Of a DNA stretch of 64,000 bases, positions 34,818-53,368 are shown in pieces. This DNA is from Myroides marinus (GTDB lineage: Bacteria > Bacteroidota > Bacteroidia > Flavobacteriales > Flavobacteriaceae), in the NCBI RefSeq assembly GCF_900109075.1, contig NZ_FNYS01000001.1, positions 310,001 to 374,000 of the forward strand. The letters run 5' to 3'. The notes beneath the pieces are model-generated. The model made no database searches and was not told where the DNA came from. It saw only the letters and a list, made by a program, of their open reading frames with translations. The translations under genes and the position numbers were made by a program. How positions within the stretch are numbered: the first letter of the stretch is position 1; each line of letters starts with the position of its first letter.

Positions 34818-36113
34818 CTATAGTGAATTTGTATTATATAATCTCATTTTATCCCCCATGAAAGAGCGGTTATAAGCGTTCTTTATTAGAGCAAATTGTG
34901 AATTCAATAATTGATTTTTTGCAGCGTTAAAAGAGAAGATATCTACCTTCCCATTTTCGTATTTTGCTTGTGTTGTACTGAAGGATTTCTCTGACAATTC
35001 AATACTTCTATGCAGTTGTTTAGCAATATTATCTAGCTGTACAATCTCTTGTTCTAGCTCCTTTACTTGATTAGATAAGTTTACTTCACTTTCCTTTATT
35101 TTCAAGGTATTCAACCGTATTTCCTCATTCTTTACACGTAACTGTCTACGTACATTTCCTCCTTGAAAAACAGGTATACTCAACCCAAAACTAACATACT
35201 GACTCTTATTATCTCCCATTTGCTTAGAGAAGGGGTTACTGCGTACTTCTACATCACTATTAAACGGTTTTGAGAAGAAAGATCCATACTGATAATTCCC
35301 TACTAATCGAGGTAAGTTTTTCGACTTTATCAGCTTTCTATCTTGCTCTAAAAGTCGTTGCTTCACACGGTTTCGTTCCACTGTAGGATTAAACTCATAA
35401 GCTGTCAATTGTGCAATAGATTCCTCCTTTTGTACCAGACTTAAGTCAGTAGCTTCAACAGTATCCACATTCAACAGATGAAGTAACTTTAACTTCTGAT
35501 TGTACAGACTATTCTCAGTCTGCTGTATACTAATCGTTTCACTGTGATAAATATACTCTATATCATAGAAGTCACTTTTAGGTTTAGCACCAGCCTCAAC
35601 CTCTTTCTGTACACGGTCAAGATTTGCCATACTATTTACTAATTGCTGCTTCTGAATTTCCAACAAAGACTGAGAGCCGATAATTTCGTAAAACAGCTCT
35701 AGAATAGACATCTGATATTGAAACAACACTTCAGCTTCATCTAATCGCGCATAATCAACATTCAGCAAATCTCTTTTATGTTGAATAAAATTACCATAAT
35801 CAAAAAGTGTTATTCCTGCGTCTAAAGATGCTCTAGTAGATTGAATATTTGAACTAACGCGACTGTTTGTAGTAGGATCAATAGCAGAACCGAAGTTATA
35901 ACTCTGACCTCCATTAAACGTTACATCTGGCAAATAGTAAGATGCTACACTCTGTTTTTGACGTTCAGCAACTTGCGTTTGTAAAGCAGACACCATTAGT
36001 CTTAAACTATTTTCTTTCCCTTTATCCACACAATCGTCCAACGTCCATTTCTCTTGCGAAAAACAAACTGTACTAAGCAATACACCCAATAATAAACACC
36101 AACTCTTACTCAT
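34818..36113 (-). CDS. TolC-family outer-membrane efflux protein
   Basis: 431 aa. Signal peptide about 1-19 (ends VCFSQ). Two OEP repeats: heptad-rich helices with the pattern LxxARxxxxxxxxxxxS in each half (for example LNVDYARLDEAEVLFQYQM and RSIELSEKSFSTTQAKYENG). Acts as the trimeric outer-membrane exit duct. It is the last gene of the five-permease export operon and overlaps the preceding permease gene by 8 bases. Confidence 0.9.
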   Translation of the reverse strand: MSKSWCLLLGVLLSTVCFSQEKWTLDDCVDKGKENSLRLMVSALQTQVAERQKQSVASYYLPDVTFNGGQSYNFGSAIDPTTNSRVSSNIQSTRASLDAGITLFDYGNFIQHKRDLLNVDYARLDEAEVLFQYQMSILELFYEIIGSQSLLEIQKQQLVNSMANLDRVQKEVEAGAKPKSDFYDIEYIYHSETISIQQTENSLYNQKLKLLHLLNVDTVEATDLSLVQKEESIAQLTAYEFNPTVERNRVKQRLLEQDRKLIKSKNLPRLVGNYQYGSFFSKPFNSDVEVRSNPFSKQMGDNKSQYVSFGLSIPVFQGGNVRRQLRVKNEEIRLNTLKIKESEVNLSNQVKELEQEIVQLDNIAKQLHRSIELSEKSFSTTQAKYENGKVDIFSFNAAKNQLLNSQFALIKNAYNRSFMGDKMRLYNTNSL

Positions 36114-38535
36114 ACTTAATATATTTTAAAACATCAATACGTGTAGCTTTCCAAGCTTTAAACACTACGAGAACTAATGAAAACAAAGTCAACAAACTTC
36201 CTGCTAATAAAAATGCTAACCAACTTAATTCTATGTGGTATGCAAAACCAGCTAACCATACTTTCATTAAATAAACAACAGGGTATACGGATATGGCAAA
36301 CCCTAACATACAATACACAAAATACGTTCTAGTTAGCCCATAAATCAATACTCTTGTATCTGCACCTAACACCTTGCGTATCGCGATTTCTTTTAATCTA
36401 TTCTGAATACTAAATGCTACTACGGCAATCAACCCAAATAAGGCGATAAAGACGGAAACAATCGTTAATATCGTTAATAATGTACGCTGATTCAACGTCT
36501 CCCTATAGCTATTCTCAAAGTCTTTATTAGCAAAATTGTACTTAATAGGATAAGTGCTATCAACTCGTTTTTTCCAGAACTGTTCTATTCTTTCTAATGT
36601 TCCTTGAACATCTGTAGGATCAATCTTCACAGATACTGTTCTCAACAAATTGTGCAACCAACTTGCTCCATCTGTCGTAAAATAAGTACAAGGCAATACT
36701 TCTGTAGAAAAACCAAGGTTCTTCATATCCTTTACAACTCCTATAATTTTGAAATATCGATTGTTCCAATTAACCTCTTTTCCAACAATACTCTCTTTAA
36801 AATTAAATGTTCTAGCATAAGACTCATTAACTAATACACTACCCGTTCCTTCACTATTTATACGAGAGTCAAAAAAACGTCCTTCTTTAATTTCAATATC
36901 AAATACATCTTTAAAACCTGTATCAATAATAAGATTTTCACTCCTAATAGAAACATCTCCGATATGGTTGCTAGAACTACTATTAAAGCCAGGCCCAAAC
37001 AATAAAGAGTGTTCAGATACAGCTATAACTCCTTTTACTTTCTTAAAGTCATTAACTACTTTCTTAAAAAGTACATCTCTATTTTCTACATTATCAATAG
37101 CGAAGTCTATATTAATGACTTGTTCTCCTTTAAAACCTAAGTCTTGATCCAACATATAGTTGATCTGTTGATTTACAACTATAGTCACTGTTAGAAAAAA
37201 GAAAGCTATAAAGAACTGAATTACTAACAGAGTATTTCGAATAACCACACCCGATCTACTTCTCATAAAGTTTCCTTTCAGCACTTTCAGAGTATCAAAA
37301 GAAGAAATAAATAACGCTGGTAAGATTCCAGAAGCCAATATTAAGATCAACAGAATCAAGAGTAATAAGGGCAGAGTTAACAATAGATCAAAATAAATAC
37401 TCCTATTAACTAACACATTAAAATAAGGCAATACTAACTCAACTAATACCATTGCTAAGATCATACTAATCCCAACCGTTATAGCTGATTCAAAAATGTA
37501 CTGACATACTAACTGACTTCTCGTACTTCCTAATGTTTTACGTATTCCTACTTCCTTAGCTCTATTAAACCCATTTACTAAAGACAGATTAACTGTATTA
37601 AGAATAGACAATATCAATAATAAAACCGCAGCTCCAACTAACATATAAAGTACCTTAGATGCTGTAGGGCCAGCACCCAAAACTGTTGAATCAGGATTTA
37701 AATGAGCACCATCTAAAACAAAAAACAGCAGTTCTGAACTACTTATATTTTCTTTTACATATTGCTCTTTACTTACTCCCTCCTCTTTAGCTGCTCGTAT
37801 AATTAATGGATCATACATTTCTCTTATGATCTTGCTCTGCACATCTTTTAATACAACGCCTGACTTAAATTTAATCAGTAAAGTATAATTAGCATCAGAC
37901 CAATTGCTATCTACATTCTCAGCTATCATTTGTTCTGCCTCTAAAGAAGCAATTCCTTTAGGAGCAAAAGAAGAGTTCCCTTGTATTTGATAGACGAATC
38001 GAACGTAGTACGTTTTTCCACTGCTTAAAGTAATTCCTTTTCCTATTGGGTTAACTTCTTTGCCAAACAATCGTTCAGATTGTCCCAACTCCAAAGCAAT
38101 AGCATCTTCCCAATTCTCCTCATAATCTTCAGCTTTTCCATAAATAGCTTTATATGGAAAAAATCTAAAAAAAGAAGCTTGAGTTGCCTTTATATCATAT
38201 AGAAATTCCTTTTTATTATCAATCTCTACACTCGCTTGTTTCCAATCATTGTTATAACTAAAATTATATTCTTCAATTATGTCATTTAATTTATCTAACT
38301 GTTTCGCAAATGGAGCAGATACCCAAGGCATAGGTGTTCCATTATAATCGCGATAGACTTCATAAATTCTATTTTTATATGGATTCCATTGATCATAGCT
38401 TTTCTCATACTTCCAGTAAAGAATAGCCAATAGCATAGCTGTTATCCCTACAGATAATCCGAATATATTTAAAAGAGAAAAGAATTTATTCTTTCCAAAA
38501 TTCGCTAAGTATAACTTAAACCAATTACCGATCAT
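36106..38535 (-). CDS. MacB/FtsX-type ABC transporter permease, paralogue 5 of the operon
   Basis: 809 aa, twice the usual MacB permease core. Pattern: N-terminal membrane helix (about 20-40), a MacB periplasmic domain, three helices of an FtsX domain (about 290-410), another single helix near 430-455, a second periplasmic domain, and a second FtsX domain (about 690-795). Conserved REVGIRKTLG-like and EIAIRKVLGADT motifs follow the periplasmic domains in each half. It ends in YIKYE like all five paralogues. It is separated from the other four by a DUF2807 gene, and is the most divergent in its N-terminus (MIGNWFKLYLANFG). Substrate unknown. Confidence 0.9.
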   Translation of the reverse strand: MIGNWFKLYLANFGKNKFFSLLNIFGLSVGITAMLLAILYWKYEKSYDQWNPYKNRIYEVYRDYNGTPMPWVSAPFAKQLDKLNDIIEEYNFSYNNDWKQASVEIDNKKEFLYDIKATQASFFRFFPYKAIYGKAEDYEENWEDAIALELGQSERLFGKEVNPIGKGITLSSGKTYYVRFVYQIQGNSSFAPKGIASLEAEQMIAENVDSNWSDANYTLLIKFKSGVVLKDVQSKIIREMYDPLIIRAAKEEGVSKEQYVKENISSSELLFFVLDGAHLNPDSTVLGAGPTASKVLYMLVGAAVLLLILSILNTVNLSLVNGFNRAKEVGIRKTLGSTRSQLVCQYIFESAITVGISMILAMVLVELVLPYFNVLVNRSIYFDLLLTLPLLLLILLILILASGILPALFISSFDTLKVLKGNFMRSRSGVVIRNTLLVIQFFIAFFFLTVTIVVNQQINYMLDQDLGFKGEQVINIDFAIDNVENRDVLFKKVVNDFKKVKGVIAVSEHSLLFGPGFNSSSSNHIGDVSIRSENLIIDTGFKDVFDIEIKEGRFFDSRINSEGTGSVLVNESYARTFNFKESIVGKEVNWNNRYFKIIGVVKDMKNLGFSTEVLPCTYFTTDGASWLHNLLRTVSVKIDPTDVQGTLERIEQFWKKRVDSTYPIKYNFANKDFENSYRETLNQRTLLTILTIVSVFIALFGLIAVVAFSIQNRLKEIAIRKVLGADTRVLIYGLTRTYFVYCMLGFAISVYPVVYLMKVWLAGFAYHIELSWLAFLLAGSLLTLFSLVLVVFKAWKATRIDVLKYIKYE

Positions 38536-38557
38536 TGGAATCCAATATTATTTTTTA

Positions 38558-39379
38558 TTAATCTACTTTACTTACTTTTCCAGATGATGATGTATTAGAA
38601 CTAATAATTTTAGCTCCACCTGTATACGTAACTTTACCTGAAGAACTAGCTCTTCCAGATACCTCATCAGTCACATTAAACAACATAGAACCAGATGAAC
38701 TAGCCTTACCATCTAAAGTCTTAACTGTAAAATCACTTCCTTTTATACTTCCACTACTTGATGCAGACGCATCAGCTGTAGTAGCACTACCTGACACATT
38801 AATTCTTGCTGAACTACTTACTCCTAATGAAGCGCTCTTTGCTTTTAGAGAAGCCTCTACTTTAGCAGAAGAACTTGCACTTAAAGAAGCATTATTCATA
38901 ACTTCAAACTTTCCATCGATACTAGCAGAAGAACTTGCCTCCAAAGAAAGGTTATCTGCTTGTACTAATTCCCCATTATATCTAGCAGAACTACTTACCT
39001 TAACATCAAAAGACTTCGCTTTTGCCTTGTTTAAAAGGTTAAACTTAGAAGATGACGATAGTGCAACCCCCTCTAGTGTTGGGTTACTAACAGTCACTTT
39101 TACTTTACCGAAATCATTAGAATTAAAGCCCCAGTTTTTTTTCTTTTCTTGATCAATATAAATTCTCAACTGACCTCCAGACACTTCTGTCTTCACATCT
39201 TTCATATGCTCAGACTTCTCTACTTCTACTACTACACTCTTAGTTCCTCCATAAGTAAAGTTTACTTCTATACTTTGAGAAGATTTAATTGTACTAAAGT
39301 CACTCACTTGACGAGTCTCTTTTGATTGTGCGAACACACTTCCTCCTACTAATAGGAAGAACATTACTAATTTTTTCAT
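38558..39379 (-). CDS. Head GIN-domain (DUF2807) exported protein
   Basis: 273 aa. Signal peptide about 1-18 (ends GSVFAQ). The rest is a right-handed parallel beta-helix predicted from repeating short units rich in SSS/SSAS/SSG (for example LEASSSASIDG, VSSSARINVSG, GKASSSGSM), a pattern typical of DUF2807 auto-transporter-like adhesins. It sits between two permease genes of the operon, 23 bases from the next, so it is part of that export system, possibly its substrate or a periplasmic component. Confidence 0.82.
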   Translation of the reverse strand: MKKLVMFFLLVGGSVFAQSKETRQVSDFSTIKSSQSIEVNFTYGGTKSVVVEVEKSEHMKDVKTEVSGGQLRIYIDQEKKKNWGFNSNDFGKVKVTVSNPTLEGVALSSSSKFNLLNKAKAKSFDVKVSSSARYNGELVQADNLSLEASSSASIDGKFEVMNNASLSASSSAKVEASLKAKSASLGVSSSARINVSGSATTADASASSSGSIKGSDFTVKTLDGKASSSGSMLFNVTDEVSGRASSSGKVTYTGGAKIISSNTSSSGKVSKVD

Positions 39380-39407
39380 ATTTAATGTTTTAGTTTTTAT
39401 GGTTAAT

Positions 39408-41861
39408 CTATTCGTATTTAATATACTTCAACACATTAATCTTAGTTGCAGACCACGCTTTTATAAACACTACTACTCCTGTTAATATCACTATACCAAT
39501 AAAGCAAACTACAAAAGGCAAGGCACTAATTTCTATTCTAAAAGCATAGTCATTAAGCCATTTATTCAAGAAGTAATAACTTGGAAATACAGCAAAAACA
39601 AATCCTGTCACACACATTATGAAATACTGTATTGATAGCTGTTTTAAAAGGCTTCCTGCACTAGCCCCCAATACTTTTCTGATAGCCACTTCACGCAATC
39701 TATTGTTGATATTAAATGAAGCTAGGCTATACAAACCAAAAAGAGCAACAAACACAACCACAGCATTCAGTGTCATAAATACATCTCTCTCTTTCTTCAC
39801 CCCTTCAAAAGTTTCTGCAAAACGCTTATCTGCAAACTCATAACTAAAAGACGTATCTGATAAATCTCGTCTCTCCCATATCTTAGCTATCTTAGTCATG
39901 ACATTGTCTACTTCATTGCTTTTGACTTTGATTGATAATTGTCTCATATTATTTCCTACCCAAGGAATCGTCTTTAGATGAAAATAAATTAAAGGAGCAT
40001 AATCTGCCTTTAACCCATAAAGATTAAAGTCCTTTACAACACCTATGACAGTTAGTTTCTCTCCATTCCATTCTATTACTTTACCAACAGGATTAGGTTC
40101 TTTCATCTCATAAGCTGTACGCTCACTAATCATAATATTAGATATAGTATCTGTCGCATAGTCTGGAGATAATACTCTCCCTTCTTTCATTTTAATATCG
40201 AACACATCTAGATAGTTAAAATCCATCCCCACATTAATTCCCTGTATCTTATTCCTATTGTAAGTAAAACCTGTTGAACTACCATTATTACTCGCTATCA
40301 TAATAGAAGCTCCTGATACCTCTTCAACTCCATCAATATTTAAAATCTCCTCTTTTAAAGAATAATATGTTTTCACCTTCTCTGTATATGGAATTTTCAC
40401 AAAATAAGATACTAAGATTACTTGATCTCCTTTAAAACCAAGGTCTTTGTTCAACATATAATTCACTTGCTGATACACAATATAACTTCCAATCATAAAG
40501 AAACAGGCAACTGTAAACTGCACCGTTAGCATTACGTTCTTAAGCGTCTTTCCTTTTTTACTCTTATTTACCTCTCCCTTTAGTACTTCTAATGTTTTAA
40601 AACTTGAAGTAAAAAGGGCTGGTATAGTACCTACAAGCAATACAATAAGAACCATAAAAAGCAGTAACCAAGGCAGTATAAAAGTGAACTCTATCTCCAT
40701 TCTTGAATTTAAAAACACCTTTAACCAAGGTATTACAAACTCTATAATAACTAATGCTACTATACATGCCAACATTGACGTTACTAATGCTTCAAATAAT
40801 CCTTGTAATATCAGATTACCTCTTGTTGCTCCAAGTGTTTTTCTAATTCCTATTTCACGAGTACGACTAATAGCCTGTGCAGTACTTAGATTGATATAAT
40901 TAAATACTGATAAGATCAAGATCAAAAGAGATAATCCTATCATAATATACAGCCTTCCTACATTTGCTCCACCTTCAGGAGTCCCATTTAACCATATATC
41001 TTTTTGCATCCTCTGATCCGCTAAGACATGTAATTTAAAAGTCCTCTCCTCGCTATTCATAAACTCTTCTACAGTCCCTCCTTCTTCCTTCTTCACATAT
41101 TCTTCTAAACTCATTCCAGCATCTTTAGCTAAATCTGTATATACATTTCTAACTAAGATATCTTTTATCTTCTTCTCTACACTTGTTATAGAGTTAGAAC
41201 TATCTAATTTTAACCAAATTGTGGAATTATAATTCCCCCAATCATCAAAAAACTGACGCTCCATCCTATCCATCGTATTCACTAATACATTTGCCATCAC
41301 AGAGTTTCGTTCATTTCCCAGTTTATAAACAGCACTAACTACATGAGGTTTTTGTTGATAAACGACAGTCTGACCTATAGGCTCTTTATCCCCGAATAAG
41401 AACTTAGCATATTCATTAGTTACCACTATAGTATTCGGTCCACTAAATGGTTTTTTCTTATCTCCTTTTACAATCTCAAAAGGGAAGAACTCAAAGAAAT
41501 TAGAGTTAACTTCTACTATTCCTTCTATCTCTTTTTTCTCCCCATTAACAAAAAGAATATCTTCTTCATAATAATTATCCATGTATGTATAATCAATGAC
41601 ATGAGAGGACTCCTCTTTTAGTTTTGCACCGAAGGGATAGGGCAATTTCATCCAGCTCGTATCGGCATTCATCTTAGATTCTACTGTGAACATAATATCC
41701 TTATTAGGATTGTCCTGATCATAAGACGCCTCCTCTCTATAATGTACAAAAGACAGAATAACTGACGCAAATCCAATACCTAAACTAAGCAGTGTAAGAA
41801 TAAAATACACTTTACTCTTCAGCACATTAAACCAATATATTTTCAACCAGTTCTTTATCAT
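39408..41861 (-). CDS. MacB/FtsX-type ABC transporter permease, paralogue 4
   Basis: 817 aa, same double MacB-FtsX architecture as its neighbours. It has IREIGIRKTLGATRGN in the first half and REVAIRKVLGASAGSL in the second, and ends INVLKYIKYE. Closely related to the paralogues at 41863 and 44307. One base separates it from the next gene upstream, implying coupled translation. Confidence 0.92.
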   Translation of the reverse strand: MIKNWLKIYWFNVLKSKVYFILTLLSLGIGFASVILSFVHYREEASYDQDNPNKDIMFTVESKMNADTSWMKLPYPFGAKLKEESSHVIDYTYMDNYYEEDILFVNGEKKEIEGIVEVNSNFFEFFPFEIVKGDKKKPFSGPNTIVVTNEYAKFLFGDKEPIGQTVVYQQKPHVVSAVYKLGNERNSVMANVLVNTMDRMERQFFDDWGNYNSTIWLKLDSSNSITSVEKKIKDILVRNVYTDLAKDAGMSLEEYVKKEEGGTVEEFMNSEERTFKLHVLADQRMQKDIWLNGTPEGGANVGRLYIMIGLSLLILILSVFNYINLSTAQAISRTREIGIRKTLGATRGNLILQGLFEALVTSMLACIVALVIIEFVIPWLKVFLNSRMEIEFTFILPWLLLFMVLIVLLVGTIPALFTSSFKTLEVLKGEVNKSKKGKTLKNVMLTVQFTVACFFMIGSYIVYQQVNYMLNKDLGFKGDQVILVSYFVKIPYTEKVKTYYSLKEEILNIDGVEEVSGASIMIASNNGSSTGFTYNRNKIQGINVGMDFNYLDVFDIKMKEGRVLSPDYATDTISNIMISERTAYEMKEPNPVGKVIEWNGEKLTVIGVVKDFNLYGLKADYAPLIYFHLKTIPWVGNNMRQLSIKVKSNEVDNVMTKIAKIWERRDLSDTSFSYEFADKRFAETFEGVKKERDVFMTLNAVVVFVALFGLYSLASFNINNRLREVAIRKVLGASAGSLLKQLSIQYFIMCVTGFVFAVFPSYYFLNKWLNDYAFRIEISALPFVVCFIGIVILTGVVVFIKAWSATKINVLKYIKYE

Positions 41862-41862
41862 A

Positions 41863-44304
41863 CTATTCGTATTTAATGTACTTCAACACATTAATCTTAG
41901 TAGCTTTATAAGCCCTTGAAAATACTATTAACAAAGTCAAAACAACTATAATCAGAAAGCAAATAATAAAAGGTAACACCCCTATCTCTATCCTAAACGC
42001 ATAATCACTAAGCCACTTGTTTAGTAAGTAATAACTCGGAAATACAGCCAATCCAAAACCTAGCAAGCAATAAATAATATACTGCGCTGTCAACTGCTTG
42101 ATTAGACTTTCTGCACTTGCCCCTAAAACTTTGCGTATAGCTACTTCTTTTAATCTAGAATTTATCGAAAACGAAGCCAAACTAAACAATCCAAACAAAG
42201 CGATAAACACCACTAGCCCATTTAATACCATAAATACATTGCGTTCTTGGATTGTCTTGTCAAAACTCTTTGCAAAACGCTTATCTACGAATTCATAAGT
42301 AAATGGTAGGTCAGAGATATCGTGTTTTTTCCACACTTGTTCTATCGCATCCATTGTCTCCTTTGCATTCTCTGCATTTATCTTAATCGACATCTCACTC
42401 ATATTACTCCCCCATCCCTCTTCTAAATCTAAAGACAGGAATATCATTGGACGGTAATCCTCATTTAACCCAAATAGATTAAAATCTTTTACCACCCCTA
42501 CTATCGTTACTTTATTCTCATTCCAATCAAAGCTTTTACCTATAGGATCTTTAAGTCCCATCATCGAAATAGCTTTCTCATTTAGCAATACATTATTAAT
42601 ACTATCTGAAGCGAATTCTCTAGATAAAGCTCTTCCCTCTTTTAACTTAATATCAAACAAATCGAAGAAGTCATAATCCATTGCTGCCACACCTGCTTGT
42701 ATTTGATTACCTTGATAAGAATATCCTACAGAAGCATAGCTTTTACCTCCCATAGCTAATGACCAAGCACTCGCTCCTTCGACACCATTTATCTTAAGAA
42801 TATCTTCTTTTAATCGTTGATAGATTGGCAAAGTATTCTTTCTTAGATCTTTTTTAAGATTATAAGACACTCCCACTATCTGATCTGCCTTATACCCCAG
42901 ATCTTTATTCAACATATAGTTTACCTGTTGATTAACAATAAGAGAACCTATAATAAAGAAACATGCCACTACAAACTGAACAGTCAATAATGTATTCTTA
43001 AACCATATCCCCTTCTTACTTCGTTTTACCGTTCCTTTTAATACTTCTATCGTTCTAAAACTTGAGATATACAATGCCGGTATCGTACCTACTAAGAATA
43101 CCACCATCACTAAGAACAGTAACACTTGAGGTATATACTCTAAAATATTAAACAAGAGTTTCGCTTTAAAGAATACCCTAAGACTAGGAAGTGAATATTC
43201 TACTATGACAAAAGAAATTATAATAGATATCAAAACTGTAAGCCCTGACTCAAAGTAATTCTGCATCATCATTCCTCCTCTACTAGCTCCTAATGTCTTG
43301 CGCATCCCCACCTCTTTACCTCGATTCATTACCTGTACAGTAGTTATATTGATATAATTAAATACAGACAATAACATGATCATAACAGATAGGCCTAAGG
43401 CAATATAAATTCTATTGACATTTGCAATTCCTTCAGGTGTGGCATTCTTATAAGCCTCCTTCATTAATCGTTGTGTACTTAAACTATGTAAGTAAAACGT
43501 CAAATCTTCATACCCATTCTCTTTTTTAAATTCTGCTGCAGATATACCTCTACTTTTAGCCACAGGAGCAATTACTTTCTCGTTATAGATATCTAATAAT
43601 TGTTTCTCAACAATTCCTTTTGATTCAGGAGTTTTTAATTTTAACCAAAGTGCAGAACTATAATTCCCCCAACCATTACTAGCAATAGCTTCTTTTACTC
43701 GTTCATCTAAATTATTAAACACCATATTAGGATCCATAGAGCTTAGCGTCTCTGCCCCCTTATAAATCCCTTTTACAGTAAATACTTTTCCCCATAATTC
43801 AATTGTTTGACCTATAGGATCTTTATCATTAAACAAGTACTCCACATAAGTATCTTTAATAAGTACCTGATCTGGTCCATCAAAAGGCTTTTGTTTATTT
43901 CCATTTAATATTTCAAAGGGAAATATTTTAAAGAAGTCTGATTGACTATAACAAGCTCTTTCGAAGCTTTTATATTTCCCATTTACAGATAACATCCCTC
44001 CTTGATAATATCCGTCTGAATAAGCATAGTCCTCTACCTCATCAGAGATATCCATTAAAGCCGCCCCATAAGGATAAGACAATGTAGCCCAGCTATCATT
44101 ATCTGCTACAGAAAACTTAGTCTCTATCGAAAAAACACGATCACTATAAGGATGCCACTTATCGTAAGACTTCTCTTCTGCATAATACAAATACGAGATA
44201 ATCACAGCAGATAGGCCTATCGCTAACCCTAATACATTCAACAAGAAATAAAACTTATTTCTCTTTGCATTGTACCAATATATTTTCAACCAGTTCTTTA
44301 ACAT
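41863..44304 (-). CDS. MacB/FtsX-type ABC transporter permease, paralogue 3
   Basis: 813 aa. N-terminus MLKNWLKIYWYNAKRNKFYF is nearly the same as that of paralogue 2; a double MacB periplasmic/FtsX arrangement follows, with GKEVGMRKTLGASRGG and KEVAIRKVLGASAESL after each periplasmic domain, and the C-terminus INVLKYIKYE. Separated from its upstream neighbour by two bases. Confidence 0.92.
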   Translation of the reverse strand: MLKNWLKIYWYNAKRNKFYFLLNVLGLAIGLSAVIISYLYYAEEKSYDKWHPYSDRVFSIETKFSVADNDSWATLSYPYGAALMDISDEVEDYAYSDGYYQGGMLSVNGKYKSFERACYSQSDFFKIFPFEILNGNKQKPFDGPDQVLIKDTYVEYLFNDKDPIGQTIELWGKVFTVKGIYKGAETLSSMDPNMVFNNLDERVKEAIASNGWGNYSSALWLKLKTPESKGIVEKQLLDIYNEKVIAPVAKSRGISAAEFKKENGYEDLTFYLHSLSTQRLMKEAYKNATPEGIANVNRIYIALGLSVMIMLLSVFNYINITTVQVMNRGKEVGMRKTLGASRGGMMMQNYFESGLTVLISIIISFVIVEYSLPSLRVFFKAKLLFNILEYIPQVLLFLVMVVFLVGTIPALYISSFRTIEVLKGTVKRSKKGIWFKNTLLTVQFVVACFFIIGSLIVNQQVNYMLNKDLGYKADQIVGVSYNLKKDLRKNTLPIYQRLKEDILKINGVEGASAWSLAMGGKSYASVGYSYQGNQIQAGVAAMDYDFFDLFDIKLKEGRALSREFASDSINNVLLNEKAISMMGLKDPIGKSFDWNENKVTIVGVVKDFNLFGLNEDYRPMIFLSLDLEEGWGSNMSEMSIKINAENAKETMDAIEQVWKKHDISDLPFTYEFVDKRFAKSFDKTIQERNVFMVLNGLVVFIALFGLFSLASFSINSRLKEVAIRKVLGASAESLIKQLTAQYIIYCLLGFGLAVFPSYYLLNKWLSDYAFRIEIGVLPFIICFLIIVVLTLLIVFSRAYKATKINVLKYIKYE

Positions 44305-44306
44305 AT

Positions 44307-46757
44307 CTATTCGTATTTGATATACTTCAACACATCTATTTTTGTCGCTCTATATGCTCTACTCAATACTATTGATAAGGTCAATACCACTATCAACAAC
44401 AAACTATACACATATACATCCCATCCTATATCTATGCGATAAGCATAGTTAGTCAACCATTTATTTAAAAAGTAATAACTCGGAAACACAGCAATACCAA
44501 AGCCTATCAAACAATAAACAAAATACTGTATTGACAACAGCTTCAACAATCCAAAAGTATTTGCTCCCAATACCTTGCGGATAGCTACTTCTTTTAACTT
44601 CGTTCCTATTGTGAAAGACGATACTGCAAACAATCCAAATAGAGCAATGAATACAACTACAATACTTAGAATATTAAATATCCTCTTCTCCATCTGTACC
44701 TTATTAAAGGTCTCTGCGAATTGCTTATCTACAAATTTGTATTTAAACACATCTCTTTCTTCTATATTATATTTCTTCCACAGCTTTTCGATATCTACAA
44801 TAGTCTTGCTAAAATATTCTGGGGAAACCTTTATGTATATAACAGAATACATTCCATAGCTATGCTTAGTCTCAGGCATATAAGAATATACAAATGGCAA
44901 TATTTTCTCTTCAAGTCCCTCAACATTAAAGTCTTTAATTATTCCTACTATTGTTTTCTTCTTGCCGAGAAGTTCTATTGGAGTATCAAGAGGTTTAGCT
45001 AAATTCATTGTACGAACAAAAGTCTCATTCACCAGTACATTATCTAAACTATCTGAAGATAATTTAGCAGATAGCATCCTCCCTTCTTTTAATTTAATCT
45101 CTAATACATCAAAGAAATTATAGTCTATCATAGCATTATTAATCATCACATTCTCAATTCCATTATTATGATAAGTACCAAATACACCTCCTCGATTACC
45201 TACGAAACTTACATTACTAGTAGATACTAACTCTACTCCTGCTATTTTCTCTAGTTCTGATTTAAAGCTTGCATACTTAATAGCACGCTTTCCTGTATAC
45301 TTACTACTACTTAGAAACTCTATATTAATAACTTGATCTCCTTTAAAACCAAGACTTTTATTGAGCATATAGTTTACTTGTTCATTTACGATGATAGAAC
45401 CAATAATAAAGAAACAAGCTATTGTAAATTGAAGAACTAAAAATCCATTACTAAGCCATTTACCTCCTTTAGTCCCTATTATATTTCCTTTTAATAGTTT
45501 GACAGTCTCAAATCTTGAAACAAGAAAAGCAGGGATACTACCACACATCAGAATCATTAAAGCAGCAATAACGATAAGAACAGCTAAATCATTTATAAAC
45601 GAAAATGTGATATTCGTCTCTAAATACGCATTAATATAAGGTAGAATGAGTTCAATAATACAAATAGCTAATACCAGAGAAATAATAACTACAATAGCAG
45701 TTTCAAAAATATTCTGTTGATAAAAATTTTTCTTACCTGCACCAACTACTCTTCTCATTCCTATTTCTTTTCCTCTACTCACTACTTGCGTTAATGATAG
45801 ATTGACATAATTAAAAATAGAAAGCAAGAGTATCGTAATAGATAAAAAAATACTAATATTTATCATTTGTACATTGGCACTACCCACTGGGAACAACCTT
45901 TTATTCGGTAGCATACGAGAATCTGCAAGTTTATTTAATACAATATCTCCCGTATAGTATTTAAAAGGCTCTTCTTCTTTATATTGTTCTAATGTTAGAC
46001 CATCTTTCTCTGCATTAGGAATAGCAACGTATTTATCCCTAAGTTCCTCTATAGCTTTTTTAATTTTATCAGGATGTTTAGTCTTCACACATAGAATTAA
46101 TCCAAAACTCCCCCAGTCATCACTATCACTAGGCTTTATAGATAAATTATTCATAACTGCATTAGGAGCAAAAGAACTGCGTAGATCCCCTATTTTATAT
46201 ACACCTGAAATAACAAATTTGGTATTACCCTTTTCATCATATTCAGGATCAATAGCTTCTATTATCTTACCTATTGGGTTTACTCCTTCCCCGAACAATG
46301 CTTCAGATATTTTAATATCTATGGCTACATCATTAGGATTAACCAATGCTTTTTCAGCATTGCCATACACAAACTCAAATGGAAAAAATTCAAAGTAGTT
46401 ATCTTGTACAGCGTAAATCTCTTTTACAGCATCTACTTTTTTCTCATTATAAATAAAATCTAAAGAACCATTATATCCATAGTACATATAATCATCTAGT
46501 TCTTTATAATTATCCTTTAAATATCTTCCCATAGGGCGAAACTGATCAGTCATCGAAAAGTTCGGAGCAACAGTCTCAACTATATACACCTCATCCTTAT
46601 TCGGATTCCATTGATCATAGCTAGACTCTTCTAAGTAATATAATGATGCCAACACAACTGATGCAATACCTATAGCCAATCCTACTACAGTCAACAAGAA
46701 GTACATCTTGTGTTTCATCGCATTGTACCAATATATTTTCAGCCAGTTCTTAAGCAT
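44307..46757 (-). CDS. MacB/FtsX-type ABC transporter permease, paralogue 2
   Basis: 816 aa, same architecture. Motifs GKEIGMRRVVGAGKKN and KEVAIRKVLGANTFGL, C-terminus IDVLKYIKYE. N-terminal 10 residues are shared with paralogue 3. Gene starts 2 bases after the stop of paralogue 1. Confidence 0.92.
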   Translation of the reverse strand: MLKNWLKIYWYNAMKHKMYFLLTVVGLAIGIASVVLASLYYLEESSYDQWNPNKDEVYIVETVAPNFSMTDQFRPMGRYLKDNYKELDDYMYYGYNGSLDFIYNEKKVDAVKEIYAVQDNYFEFFPFEFVYGNAEKALVNPNDVAIDIKISEALFGEGVNPIGKIIEAIDPEYDEKGNTKFVISGVYKIGDLRSSFAPNAVMNNLSIKPSDSDDWGSFGLILCVKTKHPDKIKKAIEELRDKYVAIPNAEKDGLTLEQYKEEEPFKYYTGDIVLNKLADSRMLPNKRLFPVGSANVQMINISIFLSITILLLSIFNYVNLSLTQVVSRGKEIGMRRVVGAGKKNFYQQNIFETAIVVIISLVLAICIIELILPYINAYLETNITFSFINDLAVLIVIAALMILMCGSIPAFLVSRFETVKLLKGNIIGTKGGKWLSNGFLVLQFTIACFFIIGSIIVNEQVNYMLNKSLGFKGDQVINIEFLSSSKYTGKRAIKYASFKSELEKIAGVELVSTSNVSFVGNRGGVFGTYHNNGIENVMINNAMIDYNFFDVLEIKLKEGRMLSAKLSSDSLDNVLVNETFVRTMNLAKPLDTPIELLGKKKTIVGIIKDFNVEGLEEKILPFVYSYMPETKHSYGMYSVIYIKVSPEYFSKTIVDIEKLWKKYNIEERDVFKYKFVDKQFAETFNKVQMEKRIFNILSIVVVFIALFGLFAVSSFTIGTKLKEVAIRKVLGANTFGLLKLLSIQYFVYCLIGFGIAVFPSYYFLNKWLTNYAYRIDIGWDVYVYSLLLIVVLTLSIVLSRAYRATKIDVLKYIKYE

Positions 46758-46759
46758 TT

Positions 46760-49138
46760 TTATTCGTATTTGATATAATTAATAATATTGATTTGTACTG
46801 CCTTATACATCTTGTTTACTAATACTGTAAATACCAATCCTGTCAAAACGACAAAAGACAACACAAAGGGAAACACAGTTATACCCGTGTGATCTATAAA
46901 CTTCTCTAACCACTTATTCATCAACCAATAGATCGGATAGATAACTACCAAATAAGCCAATATAGTAGTCACAATAAATGGTCTAATCAGATTGACGAAC
47001 AACTCTTTATTACTTGCTCCTAATACCTTTCTGATAACAATTTCTTTAAGGCGCTGTTCTACCGCAAAAGACATCACTGCATATAACCCAAACAAGGCGA
47101 TTAATACTACAGCTCCGTTCCACAACATAAACATATTGCGTTGCGATAAAGTCTTCTGATAGGTCTGAGCAAATTGTTGTTTTGCTCCTATTACCTCAAA
47201 TGGATATTCGTAATCCACATTTACTATCCAGAAAGCCTGTAATCTCTCCAATGTTTCTTCCTTTACCTTTGGATCTATCTGCACAGATAGAGACTCTATA
47301 CCGTATGGCAAAAACTCTACATCTCTCCAGTGAAACAAAAGCATTGGCTTAACACTCTCTTCAAAACCATCTCTATTAAAATCGTCTAAAACTCCCTTAA
47401 TAATAAATGTACTCCCATCATAAGCGATAACCTCTCCTACTATATCTTCAACATTTTTACCTAGTTGATCTACAAACTTTTTATTGACATATATCGTAGG
47501 TAAGTCAGCATCTATATCGTCTTTAGATGCAAGGATATTGAACCCCATCATAGAGATATAAGATTCATCTACACCATCCATAATAAAGTCAGTAATCTTC
47601 TGCTGCTTATAATATGCTGTGTGATTTGTATTTATACTATTTCCTTTAAAGGAGATAGTCGATAGACCTACACGCTCTATACCTTTTATTTGCTCTATCT
47701 GTTCTACTATCTTCGGTGTTCTATACAGCTTACGTCTAATCTGCTGAGTATATAATTTGACTTGATATACATTCTCCCCTTTAAACCCAAGTTCCTTATT
47801 CTGCATATAATCTACCTGGTTATATACTAGCCAACCCGCGATCAAAAAGAAGAAAGCAATCACTAACTGCACCCCTACAAAAGCCATCCTCCACTTAGAT
47901 ATCTTAGTGCTAAGTTGCACCTGTCCTCCTTTTGTATTTTGTCTAGAGATAACACTAGCAAAAAGAGCTGGCAGTAATCCACCCACACAGATAATACACC
48001 CTACAACTAATAGAATAACAGTACTCATTGCTCCCCACGAGAATACAAGTCTCTGGTGTAAGAAGCTATTGTAAATCGGCAAACTCAATTCTACTAAAAC
48101 CAAGGCAATACTCAATGCTATCAATACGTTTAGCACTGTCTCAAATAGAAGCTGTAGAACCAATTGCACTCTAGAAGCACCTATTATACGTCTCAGTGTA
48201 AACTCCTTCGCTCTACTCAATACGTTAGCCTGGTTAAGACTGATATAATTCACCACAGTTAACAGGAATATCAAGAACGAACACCCTGTAATCAGTCCTA
48301 TAGTATCTTTCTTCGTATTCCCTTCTAATAAAGAAGTTTGCTTAGACTCAAAGCGCGCTTCTGCTAAAGGCACTAATCTAGAGATTACCTCATCTCCTTT
48401 GTCTTCAAAGAACTTATTGCGCTTTTTCTTTGTGTAATAAACCTCCTCTAACTGTCTTAAGACATCTAACTGAAGTGTTCCTTTATTCTTTTTAAATACT
48501 AAGCCTCCTACGTTTTCTTGCCATAGCTCACTACTATCTTCCGTATCATACTCTATATTAGCCAGTACTACATCTGGCATAATCGTAGCGCGCTTATCTA
48601 GTTCGTATACCCCGCTAATCACATATCTCTGGTGAGCTAGTGATAGTGTATCACCTACTGGATTCTTATCTCCAAAAAAACGAGTAGCCAAAGAAGAAGA
48701 TATCGCAATCGAATAATCATTTACGAAAAGCTTCTCTTTATCTCCATACTTAAAATCAAAAGCAAAGAATTGAAAGAACGTTTCCTGTGTATTCAGTATC
48801 TTATTTACGATTCCTTGTGTTGTCTTACTTTCACCATAGAAGTCTAAATATTCTAAGGCGTAGTAGCAATATTCATCTGCTAGCTTATTCTCCACTAAGT
48901 AAGGGCCAACTCCTGCAGGAATAAATATAGAATTGGCCTGTTTACCCATCTCTAGGTTTAACTCATACATCTCATCTACCTCTGGTATCCATCTGTTATA
49001 GCTATACTCACTCTTATAGTAAGTCACTGCTAAGATCACAGAAGCCATACCTATAGCCAACCCTATGATGTTCCACAAAAAGAACAACTTAGAGCTACTG
49101 ATATTTTTGATATATATTTTAAACCAATTCTTTAGCAT
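46760..49138 (-). CDS. MacB/FtsX-type ABC transporter permease, paralogue 1
   Basis: 792 aa, the shortest of the five. Motifs AKEFTLRRIIGASRVQ and KEIVIRKVLGASNKEL, C-terminus INIINYIKYE. Its N-terminus (MLKNWFKIYIKNISSSKL) is less like the others. It starts 4 bases after the stop of the DUF2807 protein at 49143, so translation is coupled to it. Confidence 0.92.
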   Translation of the reverse strand: MLKNWFKIYIKNISSSKLFFLWNIIGLAIGMASVILAVTYYKSEYSYNRWIPEVDEMYELNLEMGKQANSIFIPAGVGPYLVENKLADEYCYYALEYLDFYGESKTTQGIVNKILNTQETFFQFFAFDFKYGDKEKLFVNDYSIAISSSLATRFFGDKNPVGDTLSLAHQRYVISGVYELDKRATIMPDVVLANIEYDTEDSSELWQENVGGLVFKKNKGTLQLDVLRQLEEVYYTKKKRNKFFEDKGDEVISRLVPLAEARFESKQTSLLEGNTKKDTIGLITGCSFLIFLLTVVNYISLNQANVLSRAKEFTLRRIIGASRVQLVLQLLFETVLNVLIALSIALVLVELSLPIYNSFLHQRLVFSWGAMSTVILLVVGCIICVGGLLPALFASVISRQNTKGGQVQLSTKISKWRMAFVGVQLVIAFFFLIAGWLVYNQVDYMQNKELGFKGENVYQVKLYTQQIRRKLYRTPKIVEQIEQIKGIERVGLSTISFKGNSINTNHTAYYKQQKITDFIMDGVDESYISMMGFNILASKDDIDADLPTIYVNKKFVDQLGKNVEDIVGEVIAYDGSTFIIKGVLDDFNRDGFEESVKPMLLFHWRDVEFLPYGIESLSVQIDPKVKEETLERLQAFWIVNVDYEYPFEVIGAKQQFAQTYQKTLSQRNMFMLWNGAVVLIALFGLYAVMSFAVEQRLKEIVIRKVLGASNKELFVNLIRPFIVTTILAYLVVIYPIYWLMNKWLEKFIDHTGITVFPFVLSFVVLTGLVFTVLVNKMYKAVQINIINYIKYE

Positions 49139-49142
49139 ACTA

Positions 49143-49898
49143 CTAATTACCTGACTTTACAGAACCCATTGAGTCTGTGTATTTCTTTAATTCTTTCGGT
49201 GTGTTATAGTACACCACTTTACCCATTGAATCTGCATAAGCATTTAAACTCTCTGTCGGATATACCTCTGCTTTACCCATAGAGTCAACCTCTGCTTTTA
49301 CATTCTTTGCTTTTAATCCTTTCCCTGCAAATGATCCTGCGCTATCTACATTGACCACTAAAGATTCTACATCTCCTGTCACCTCTACTCTACCTGCAGA
49401 GTCAACATTAGCCTTCATCGTCTTCGCTGTTACGTTACCTACATATTTAGATGCTGAGTCCACATTGATATTTATCGCTGTCACAGAGAAATTAGCATTT
49501 ACAGATCCTCTACCATCAACATTAATCTTAGCTACCTCACCTGTCACTCGCCCTGTCACAACTATTTTTCCCATTGCACTTGCGTAGTAATTTAGTATTC
49601 CTTTTTGAGATACATTCACTGTGATTTTTCCTAAATTTCTTATACCTCTATTCAGTGATTTTAAGTCAACTATCAACTTACTCCCAGATTGTCTGATTTG
49701 TACAAATTCAGCAATACCATCTTTCTCTGTAGTAATCTCCACTGTATTAGAGTCCTTACTAGCATCTATATTTACGATAAGTTGTGCAGACGCCTCTATA
49801 CTCTGTACATTACCAGAGATAAATACTGATTGCTTGTCTTGTGCATGTAAGATAAAAGACAATAATGCAGCCACTAATGTTATTAAAAAGCGTATCAT
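49143..49898 (-). CDS. DUF2807-type exported protein with short beta-helix repeats
   Basis: 251 aa. Signal peptide about 1-20 (ends FILHAQ), no lipobox. After about residue 90 there are regular repeats of VDSAG/VDSMG (for example KANVDSAGRVEVTG, LVVNVDSAGSFAG, KAEVDSMGKAEVY, AYADSMGKVVYY), consistent with a narrow beta-helix. The family is called head-GIN/DUF2807. It lies between the ATPase gene and the first permease gene, in the same operon as its relative at 38558. Confidence 0.8.
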   Translation of the reverse strand: MIRFLITLVAALLSFILHAQDKQSVFISGNVQSIEASAQLIVNIDASKDSNTVEITTEKDGIAEFVQIRQSGSKLIVDLKSLNRGIRNLGKITVNVSQKGILNYYASAMGKIVVTGRVTGEVAKINVDGRGSVNANFSVTAININVDSASKYVGNVTAKTMKANVDSAGRVEVTGDVESLVVNVDSAGSFAGKGLKAKNVKAEVDSMGKAEVYPTESLNAYADSMGKVVYYNTPKELKKYTDSMGSVKSGN

Positions 49899-49910
49899 AA
49901 TTTTGTGTTT

Positions 49911-50615
49911 TTATTCTGCAAAAACATCCACGATTTTAGTATTTATCTTCTCTGATAAGATCATACCATCCTTCATTAATATCGTGCGTTCTGAGTACGA
50001 TGCATCGTGATTCGAGTGAGTCACCATAATAATCGTAGCTCCTTGTTGATGCAGTTCTGTTAATAATTCCATTACTTCATTTCCATTCTTACTATCTAAG
50101 TTACCAGTAGGCTCATCGGCTAAGATAATCTTAGGATTAGTCACTAACGCACGCCCTACAGCTACACGTTGTTGTTGCCCTCCTGATAGTTGTTGTGGAT
50201 AATGTTTCAGTCTGTGTACGATATTTAATCGTTCTGCGATTTCCATCACACGCTTTTTGCGTTCGCTACTTGGCACTTTGTTATAGATAAGAGGCAATTC
50301 TATATTATCATATACTGACAACTCATCTATAAGATTAAAGTTCTGGAAGATAAATCCGATATTTTCTTTTCTAATTTGTGCACGTTGACTCTCCGTTAGC
50401 CCTACCATCTCTTTCTCTAATAATAGGTAACTACCACTACTAGCATTATCTAGCAGTCCGATGATATTAAGTAATGTGGACTTTCCACATCCTGAAGGCC
50501 CCATCACTGAAATAAACTCTCCTTTCTTCACATTTAACGAAACTTGATTTAAAGCCGTTGTCTCTATTTCCTCTGTCTGAAACACACGAGACATTTGATT
50601 GATTGCTATTACCAT
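49911..50615 (-). CDS. MacB/LolD-type ABC transporter ATP-binding protein
   Basis: 234 aa. Walker [10 protein letters not shown] (39-47), signature [15 protein letters not shown], Walker [14 protein letters not shown]-loop [10 protein letters not shown]. The DEPTGNLD and NPKIILAD pattern is typical of the LolD/MacB/FtsE ATPases that drive MacB-type permeases. It is the only ATPase in the operon and must serve all five permeases if they are all active. It lies 3 bases from the adaptor gene. Confidence 0.96.
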
Positions 50616-50617
50616 AA

Positions 50618-51859
50618 TTATTCCTCTATGTTTAAATGTTCTACTCTTAAATAATCTTTATAACTCGACACGATCACCTGTTCTCCTACTTCTAATCCTG
50701 AGATAATCTCATAGTAAGCTGGGTTCTCACGTCCTATTTCTACATTTCTTCTTACTGCTTTATTATTCTTCACTACATACACCCATTCTCCTTTAGTATC
50801 TTGGTAGAAGTTTCCTTTAGGCAGTAGTAATGCTTTCTCTTTACCTGATAAGAACAACTTCACACCGTATGTAGTTCCTTCTTGTAGTTTTAACTCTTCC
50901 TCTGTATCAAAGGCTAAGTGCACTTCAAATCTTCCACTCTTTACCTCTGGCAAAACTTTGATTACTTCTACATTCACTATTTTTCCTTTCATATCGATCT
51001 GTCCTCTTTGCTTTAGTAAGATCTTATCTAGATAAAACTCATCTACCTGAGCGACTAACTTATATCCCTCCATCACATCTAGCTTACCGATACTCTCTCC
51101 AGCATTATACGTCTTACCTAATATTGCCTCAAAAGAAGACAATCGGCCAGACACAGGAGCTTTAAGTAAGAAGTTTTGCTTGTTCTCTCTCAGTTGTTCA
51201 AGGCTTCTGTTGATTACAGCTAGCGACTGATCTATTTGTTTCACTTGTAAAGCATTGCTCTGTTTTTCCTTTTGGATACTCTCTTCCATCAATGCTTTTC
51301 TCTTTTTTTGATAAGCTAAAGCCTCTTTCGTCTTGTTCCAATCACTCTCTGATAATATCTCTTGATCGTGTAACTTCTTATTTAGATCGTATTGTAACTC
51401 TGCATTCTTATAGTCGTATTCTATACTAATCAAATCCTTCGTTAAATTTAGTTCTTGATTGCGAATATTCATCTTATTCACGTTCAAATTATTCATTTGT
51501 TCTATCAAAGAAGCTTCTTGTGACATAAAGCTAAACTCAGTACTCGGATTATAAAGTCTTACTAGCGGTTGCCCTTTCTCTACTATACTACCATTCTCTA
51601 CTAATCGCTCTAATACCGCTCCTCCTTCTGTAATATTTACTAATAGAGAATGCAGTGGCTCTACCTGAGACTGAAATGAAATATACTCTTCAAAATAGTT
51701 CTCTTCAACAGCTCTAATTCTAATCTCTTTCTTCGAAACATTTAAAGCAATATTCTGAAAAAAGGTAAAATAACTAATGAAGCCCAAAGCGATAATACCT
51801 ACTGATATGAGTATTATCTTAACTTTTTTTCTATTTTTACGAGGTATAGTACGATCCAT
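50618..51859 (-). CDS. HlyD/MacA-type periplasmic adaptor of the export operon
   Basis: 413 aa from the ATG at 51859; a longer reading to 51913 lies upstream of the candidate sigma-54 transcription start, so it is disfavoured. One N-terminal membrane helix after the basic RKNRKKVK stretch, a lipoyl half-motif, a long coiled-coil hairpin (about 85-215, rich in K/E/Q/L heptads), and beta-barrel and membrane-proximal domains. It bridges the permease and TolC. First gene of the operon. Confidence 0.88.
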   Translation of the reverse strand: MDRTIPRKNRKKVKIILISVGIIALGFISYFTFFQNIALNVSKKEIRIRAVEENYFEEYISFQSQVEPLHSLLVNITEGGAVLERLVENGSIVEKGQPLVRLYNPSTEFSFMSQEASLIEQMNNLNVNKMNIRNQELNLTKDLISIEYDYKNAELQYDLNKKLHDQEILSESDWNKTKEALAYQKKRKALMEESIQKEKQSNALQVKQIDQSLAVINRSLEQLRENKQNFLLKAPVSGRLSSFEAILGKTYNAGESIGKLDVMEGYKLVAQVDEFYLDKILLKQRGQIDMKGKIVNVEVIKVLPEVKSGRFEVHLAFDTEEELKLQEGTTYGVKLFLSGKEKALLLPKGNFYQDTKGEWVYVVKNNKAVRRNVEIGRENPAYYEIISGLEVGEQVIVSSYKDYLRVEHLNIEE

Positions 51860-51883
51860 TACTGACTGTTTTATAGATAGAAT

Positions 51884-51899
51884 AACAATAATGTGCCAA
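51884..51899 (-). promoter_or_regulatory. Candidate sigma-54 -24 element ahead of the export operon
   Basis: On the minus strand TTGGCAC (51893-51899) matches the -24 consensus exactly; the -12 region reads TTGTT one base too close, so the GC of the -12 box is missing. Predicted start near 51872, about 13 bases before the ATG. The divergent gene encodes an NtrC-type sigma-54 activator, which makes the site more credible, but the poor -12 lowers confidence. Confidence 0.35.
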
Positions 51900-51960
51900 T
51901 CATTAATAAACACATTACCATCTACAAATCAACAACTTAATAATCTGCTATAAAAATAAC

Positions 51961-51976
51961 TGTTCAGTTTCGGACA
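51961..51976. promoter_or_regulatory. Candidate upstream activator site
   Basis: TGTTC-AGTTTC-GGACA, imperfect inverted repeat with 5-bp arms, about 95 bases upstream of the predicted sigma-54 start and in the intergenic region shared with the NtrC-type regulator gene. Position suits an enhancer-binding protein; identity is a guess. Confidence 0.3.
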
Positions 51977-52011
51977 CTAAATCGTTCGCTTTTGAAATAA
52001 ACCCTTACACA

Positions 52012-53358: not shown

Positions 53359-53368
53359 GTTATATCAG

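Follow-up and report, generated by a model that had tools for sequence, protein, structure and literature searches.

A Myroides marinus operon encoding five duplicated MacB-type permeases and one ATPase belongs to a widespread, variable locus type

The window, a stretch of 64,000 nucleotides from Myroides marinus, contains a long operon on the minus strand that encodes transporter components, with genes for a response regulator and a histidine kinase on the plus strand beside it. The features are listed below in the order of transcription, followed by the divergent region and the regulatory genes.

51859 to 34818, minus strand: operon of ten open reading frames, about 17 kb
50618..51859, minus strand: periplasmic adaptor of the HlyD/MacA type, 413 aa; HlyD_3 and RND_mfp above cut-off
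49911..50615, minus strand: ATPase of the MacB/LolD/DarD type, 234 aa; the sole ATPase found in the locus
49143..49898, minus strand: GIN1, DUF2807 protein with a signal-peptide-like N-terminus; predicted beta-helix
46760..49138, minus strand: permease P1, 792 aa; duplicated MacB/FtsX unit
44307..46757, minus strand: permease P2, 816 aa
41863..44304, minus strand: permease P3, 813 aa
39408..41861, minus strand: permease P4, 817 aa; structure modelled
38558..39379, minus strand: GIN2, second DUF2807 protein; directly before P5 in 6/6 Myroides-type loci examined
36106..38535, minus strand: permease P5, 809 aa; final permease in 6/6 Myroides-type loci examined
34818..36113, minus strand: TolC-type outer membrane factor, 431 aa; Pfam OEP
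51860..52011: divergent intergenic region between the operon and the regulator gene
52012..53358, plus strand: NtrC-type response regulator with receiver, sigma-54 interaction domain and Fis-type HTH; divergent from the operon
53369..54697, plus strand: histidine kinase; two predicted TM helices joined by about 8 linker residues

The order adaptor, ATPase, DUF2807 protein, permeases 1 to 4, DUF2807 protein, permease 5 and TolC, claimed in an earlier note on this DNA, was reproduced exactly by the open reading frames and their Pfam matches (HlyD_3, ABC_tran, DUF2807 twice and OEP, with two MacB_PCD and two FtsX stretches in each of the 792 to 817-residue permeases). All ten genes lie on a single strand, and the gaps, given in that note as 1 to 28 bases or a small overlap, measured 2, 12, 4, 2, 2, 1, 28 and 22 bases, followed by one overlap of 8 bases. 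Internal promoters were counted at 73 versus 75.6 expected, and terminators at 6 versus 5.1 expected. The adaptor frame has a GTG upstream at 51913; its ATG at 51859 matches the start in the nearest relative. The two DUF2807 proteins scored 79.1 and 120.2 bits against a gathering cut-off of 24.2 (PF10988), and one further DUF2807 protein is encoded outside the operon. Across the genome, 10 of the 14 MacB_PCD matches and 10 of the 15 FtsX matches fell in this operon; the remainder were single-unit frames of 319 to 464 aa, and no duplicated permease was found elsewhere in the genome. The regulator and kinase genes (52012-54697), absent from the earlier note, are part of the conserved locus.

The model of P4 (pLDDT 86.9) has eight TM helices and two coupling helices (alignment with 49 other permeases), arranged as TM1, a periplasmic domain, TM2, a coupling helix, TM3 and TM4, after which the whole series is repeated. 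Eight hydrophobic segments were also seen by hydropathy in each of P1 to P5. In a Foldseek comparison of the model with the PDB, the YbbP chain of YbbAP ranked top (two entries, full length), MacB second, and LolCDE and BceAB lower; the modest TM-scores (0.41-0.44) and an rmsd near 12 of the YbbP alignments indicate a likeness of layout, not of state. Each permease therefore looks, on the model, like a single-chain fusion of two MacB units, a pseudo-dimer. Such a protein should need two ATPase copies only and no partner permease. At one other locus (L045:5647-8072), two half-size permeases replace one duplicated permease, possibly an ancestral or split form.

These proteins have the hallmarks of type VII (MacB-type) ABC systems, namely an FtsX/MacB unit with a coupling helix and with a large periplasmic domain separating TM1 from TM2. 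They share with Escherichia coli YbbAP the single-chain duplicated permease, the two periplasmic domains, the separate ATPase and a full-length fold match; however, YbbP has ten TM helices, of which two serve as links (PMC12646458), whereas the permeases here have eight, and the locus adds several permeases, an adaptor, TolC and a kinase-regulator pair. Two ATPases per YbbP have been resolved structurally (PMC12646458), and according to a review a double permease fused into one chain always comes with its ATPase as a separate protein (PMC5985334). The operon resembles MacAB-TolC in combining an adaptor, a MacB-type unit and TolC, but MacB proper is a dimerising protein in which one four-TM unit is fused to the ATPase (PMC5985334); in the present operon a separate gene encodes the ATPase, and the permease is both doubled and multiplied. 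The duplicated ADOP permeases (TIGR03434) were the best NCBIfam match by E-value for P1 to P5, far below the cut-off at 160-225 against 622.3 bits, and here the ATPase adjoins the permeases. The C-terminal KYE tail is striking in P1 to P5 and in one permease alignment; as a universal permease feature it was rejected, since this ending occurs in only 56 of the 476 family permeases.

The five permeases of the window are 29-49% identical to one another, and this identity is unevenly distributed. Means among P1 to P5 were 82% for coupling helix 2, 54% for coupling helix 1 and 34-49% for the TM regions, versus 27-28% for the periplasmic domains. The coupling motif [KR]E-xxx-R[KR] is kept in both halves of all five. 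When searched as a fixed motif in the 476 family permeases, it was present in the first half of 330, the second half of 451 and both halves of 310, compared with 0 and 4 occurrences in two control stretches.

The claim that one ATPase serves five permeases held as far as sequence tells: both ATPase-contact motifs are present in P1 to P5 and no second ATPase was found within the window. The earlier note had also asked if ATPases encoded elsewhere pair with individual permeases. The next-best ATPase of the genome, 46% identical to that of the operon, scored highest against the MacB and LolD models, below their cut-offs, and no gene resembling P1 to P5 was found in the surrounding 16 kb. A single ATPase gene need not imply a shortage, because each permease offers two sites to two ATPase copies. 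Sharing of an ATPase has precedents in MsmK and MsmX, whose partner genes are scattered. As is proposed for the present operon, MsmK (PMC4519317) and MsmX (PMC5730181) each serve several ABC systems, although these are sugar importers.

The nearest relatives of the locus are in Myroides, where the ATPase is 90-94% identical. Six Myroides-type loci are built alike, as adaptor, ATPase, DUF2807 protein, permeases, DUF2807 protein, P5 and TolC, and the survey of permease number among related strains that had been proposed gave a range of two to six: five in the window, six in WP-1, five in NP-2, three in 1354, two in M. pelagicus and four in G020. The ends of these arrays are alike and the middle is variable; P5 orthologs were present in 6/6 loci and P1 orthologs in 5/6, while the middle permeases formed one clade (UFBoot 99) in which some duplications are shared and others are confined to the WP-1/NP-2/1354 group. 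Support for the whole Myroides permease set as one clade was weak (UFBoot 71; 0.858 in a wider tree). In part at least, the middle permeases originated inside the Myroides lineage, and an ancient fixed set of five was not supported for Myroides by the permease tree. In G020, a close relative, the P2 counterpart (L031:8812-11232) is cut by an in-frame stop; relatives hold intact copies.

Across the Myroides-type genomes, identity was 88-98% for the ATPase, 48-81% for P5, 45-83% for P1 and 42-78% for GIN1. Membrane parts were more alike than periplasmic parts in 8/9 ortholog pairs, two of these by one point; the exception was P1 of the window against G020 (membrane part 48%, periplasmic part 54%).

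An ATPase ortholog was detected in 127 of 397 genomes of the taxonomic family (E 1e-85 or better, the window's own genome counted) and in 89 of 296 genomes of the phylum (E 1e-80). The locus survey comprised 116 loci, the window and 115 others; 100 of the latter were taken, mostly from the best downward, from 143 family-search matches, of which 43 were left out, and 15 came from a separate search. Three loci were excluded: L041, with no ATPase detected, and L047 and L048, which represent other ATPases. Permeases longer than 600 aa were counted per locus, the counts being lower bounds where a stretch ended. There were 0 permeases at 3 loci, 1 at 35, 2 at 17, 3 at 4, 4 at 14, 5 at 13, 6 at 7, 7 at 5, 8 at 3, 9 at 1, 10 at 2, 11 at 4, 12 at 7 and 13 at 1; the number thus spans 0 to at least 13, with two or more at 78 of the 116. 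Among the 103 loci judged complete, 34 had one permease and 67 had two or more, with a maximum of 12. The operon belongs to a widespread and variable locus type. A word search of titles and abstracts in the open-access literature found no description of tandem duplicated-permease arrays in Bacteroidota; for two Dyadobacter genomes, 28 and 33 copies of such permeases are given by automatic annotation (PMC11573002).

In a permease tree of 471 sequences there were only eight single-locus clades, of two permeases each, so the other large sets are mostly older. Permease frames of at least 700 aa numbered 476, as against six loci with shorter pieces, two of which lie near contig ends and one of which is the half-size pair, maybe natural. 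The adaptor was present at 111 of the 116 loci. A further set of 80 loci overlaps the 116 in part, so that the counts are not additive; in it, adaptor and TolC were both absent from 15 loci that have the regulator. Together with L037, L039, L040 and L053, these 15 loci encode kinase, regulator, ATPase and permease but neither adaptor nor TolC, and the core unit thus need not be a tripartite pump.

At 45 of the 116 loci the operon also contains a second, divergent ATPase, usually at its end. All five sequence patterns tested were kept in 42 of 44 such proteins; the test is rough, as it passes only 64 of the 116 main ATPases, with failures mostly at one position. Complete loci with at least five permeases numbered 35, and 29 of these contained a second ATPase. 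In the long arrays L099 and L134 one is found some 2 kb outside the run that was counted, and the L097 stretch ends within the array, which leaves the window, L084 and L108 as long complete arrays without one; Myroides WP-1, with six permeases, and NP-2, with five, have one ATPase each. Sharing of one ATPase is therefore not general among long arrays. Given pseudo-dimeric permeases, the second ATPases at array 3' ends, such as L080:1286-1960, could be one half of an ATPase heterodimer.

The regulator was detected upstream at 99/116 loci and at 77/80 in the overlapping set, stretch edges having cost some. Of 100 kinases adjoining such regulators, a sample that contains some loci twice, 94 had exactly two TM helices as predicted by simple hydropathy, and 97 had fewer than 15 residues linking the first two helices. 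By the same simple hydropathy, this is the topology of Bce-type kinases, with two TM helices and a very short extracytoplasmic loop. Bce-type modules use an OmpR-type regulator, whereas the regulator here is of the NtrC type. In common with BceRSAB-type modules, the locus has an ATPase, a duplicated permease and an intramembrane-sensing kind of kinase (PMC3023708); it differs in having two periplasmic domains per permease rather than a single large extracytoplasmic domain, eight TM helices and Gram-negative exit parts. Bce modules have been called specific to Firmicutes (PMC3023708), and their kinases are described as needing the transporter for sensing (PMC5985334, PMC3023708).

A sigma-54 factor is encoded in the genome, and a regulon study inferred sigma-54 control of FtsX-like permeases, calling this the first evidence (PMC12316311). 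When the divergent regions were scanned with a -24/-12 consensus, 13 of 67 reached 9/11 matches, with a mean best score of 4.7 versus 2.9 in shuffles. Before the operon of the window there was no strong candidate. A stretch like a -24 element, TTGGCAC, stands at about 51899-51893, but its -12 partner is one base out of position and is not kept in the nearest relative, whose best candidate lies inside the gene.

The DUF2807 proteins had been described as adhesin-like beta-helix proteins. The beta-helix stood, since the GIN1 model (pLDDT 92.8) is a predicted beta-helix that matches solved DUF2807 proteins of Parabacteroides and Bacteroides, and the proteins look secreted; the adhesin label comes from a Pfam name. 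In the Myroides GIN1 (49143-49898), repeated DSAG/DSMG motifs take the place of the SSSG of other DUF2807 proteins and might form a ladder for a ligand or metal. In other genera, ten array proteins all scored above the DUF2807 cut-off. Such proteins were encoded at 24/116 loci, comprising 22/80 with several permeases and 2/36 others; the contrast was weaker in the 80-locus set (15/80; 9/31 with several permeases and 6/49 others). The arrays contain 77 non-core frames of at least 120 aa, 39 of them DUF2807. By a simple hydropathy rule, and over overlapping locus sets, 74 of these 77 look secreted versus 354 of 1265 other frames of the same loci. The accessories scanned against Pfam included one hydrolase, one esterase and one S41 peptidase. 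These observations point to possible periplasmic partners rather than adhesins. The alpha/beta hydrolase (L092:8946-9773), esterase (L123:14695-15558) and S41 peptidase (L189:8539-9978) lie inside or beside their arrays and may be compared with TesA, a hydrolase partner of YbbAP; TesA bound to YbbAP is a precedent for a secreted partner (PMC12646458). The solved Legionella Dot/Icm secretion complex (7muc) includes a DUF2807 protein, so the fold can be a structural part of envelope machines.

The operon is best read, with a probability of about 60%, as encoding five alternative machines, each of two ATPases and one permease, that draw on shared parts. In such a scheme, alternative type VII ABC machines would share one motor; each permease would use its two coupling helices to bind the shared ATPase in two copies, a 2:1 stoichiometry suggested by analogy with YbbAP, and permeases may exchange on that ATPase. 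ATP-driven motion would be passed to the periplasmic domains by mechanotransmission, and as these domains differ among the permeases they probably determine which molecules a given machine picks up from membrane or periplasm. Where present, the adaptor and TolC would provide a common exit, and secreted partners such as the DUF2807 proteins may act on the periplasmic side. With its sensor loop all but absent, the kinase probably monitors the transporters' state and acts through the sigma-54-dependent regulator. The weakest step concerns the substrate; most likely the machines would protect or maintain the envelope in the face of changing toxic amphiphiles or peptides.

Swappable permeases were one of two readings offered by the earlier note, and that idea fits permeases that each look like a complete pseudo-dimer and whose number varies from two to six in close relatives. 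The other, in which several permeases are assembled into one large complex on a single adaptor-TolC conduit, would suit the adjacent and nearly gapless genes; it is disfavoured by the pseudo-dimeric look of each permease, by the 34 of 103 complete loci at which one permease suffices, by the differing numbers among close relatives and by the 15 of 80 loci that have the regulator but lack both adaptor and TolC, and is very improbable. It is also unlikely that the permeases are mostly redundant recent duplicates, several of them functionless. Although one permease of a close relative has a premature stop and the middle permeases are at least partly of Myroides-lineage origin, the paralogs of the window are only 29-49% identical, and the 476 long frames stand against just six loci with shorter pieces.

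The remaining alternatives concern what the permeases do. They may be mainly receptors that inform the loop-less kinase of the compound encountered, with transport secondary, as proposed for Bce-type modules. The predicted kinase topology and the regulator adjoining the operon at most loci agree with this, and the BceS response is reported to depend on BceB and active BceA (PMC5985334); nevertheless, the regulator is of the NtrC type and an adaptor at 111/116 loci argues for export, which makes a primarily sensory array somewhat unlikely. Dedicated export, either of a product made by the cell itself or of the DUF2807 proteins, in the manner of the darobactin exporter, was considered because DarD and DarC are the best NCBIfam matches by E-value of the ATPase and adaptor, though both fall below their cut-offs (DarD 288.6/375, DarC 163.5/450; DarB at most 108.6/700). 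However, no biosynthesis gene was recognised by eye among the frames of 30000-56000, part of which were family-scanned, the DUF2807 proteins carry signal-like N-termini of their own and they occur at only 24/116 and 15/80 loci; such an exporter is a poor prospect.

With the set of alternative machines on a shared motor retained as the preferred reading, a more tentative proposal, and on balance a doubtful one, is that these loci form an envelope-defence platform of the Bacteroidota. One motor would serve a lineage-specific array of fast-changing complete permeases with exchangeable secreted partners (beta-helix DUF2807 proteins, hydrolases and peptidases) and a kinase that senses through the transporters, and new specificities would come from tandem duplications in mid-array, with the motor unchanged. 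If right, the reading of a shared motor would show how a mechanotransmission ABC machine can gain diversity when permeases are added and the motor is kept, and the loci would offer a natural series, from 1 to 12 permeases, for probing permease recognition in type VII systems. It would also suggest that transporter-sensing kinases have a Gram-negative counterpart, and what the DUF2807 proteins of Bacteroidota may do. The locus looks like an expandable toolkit for handling molecules of the cell envelope.
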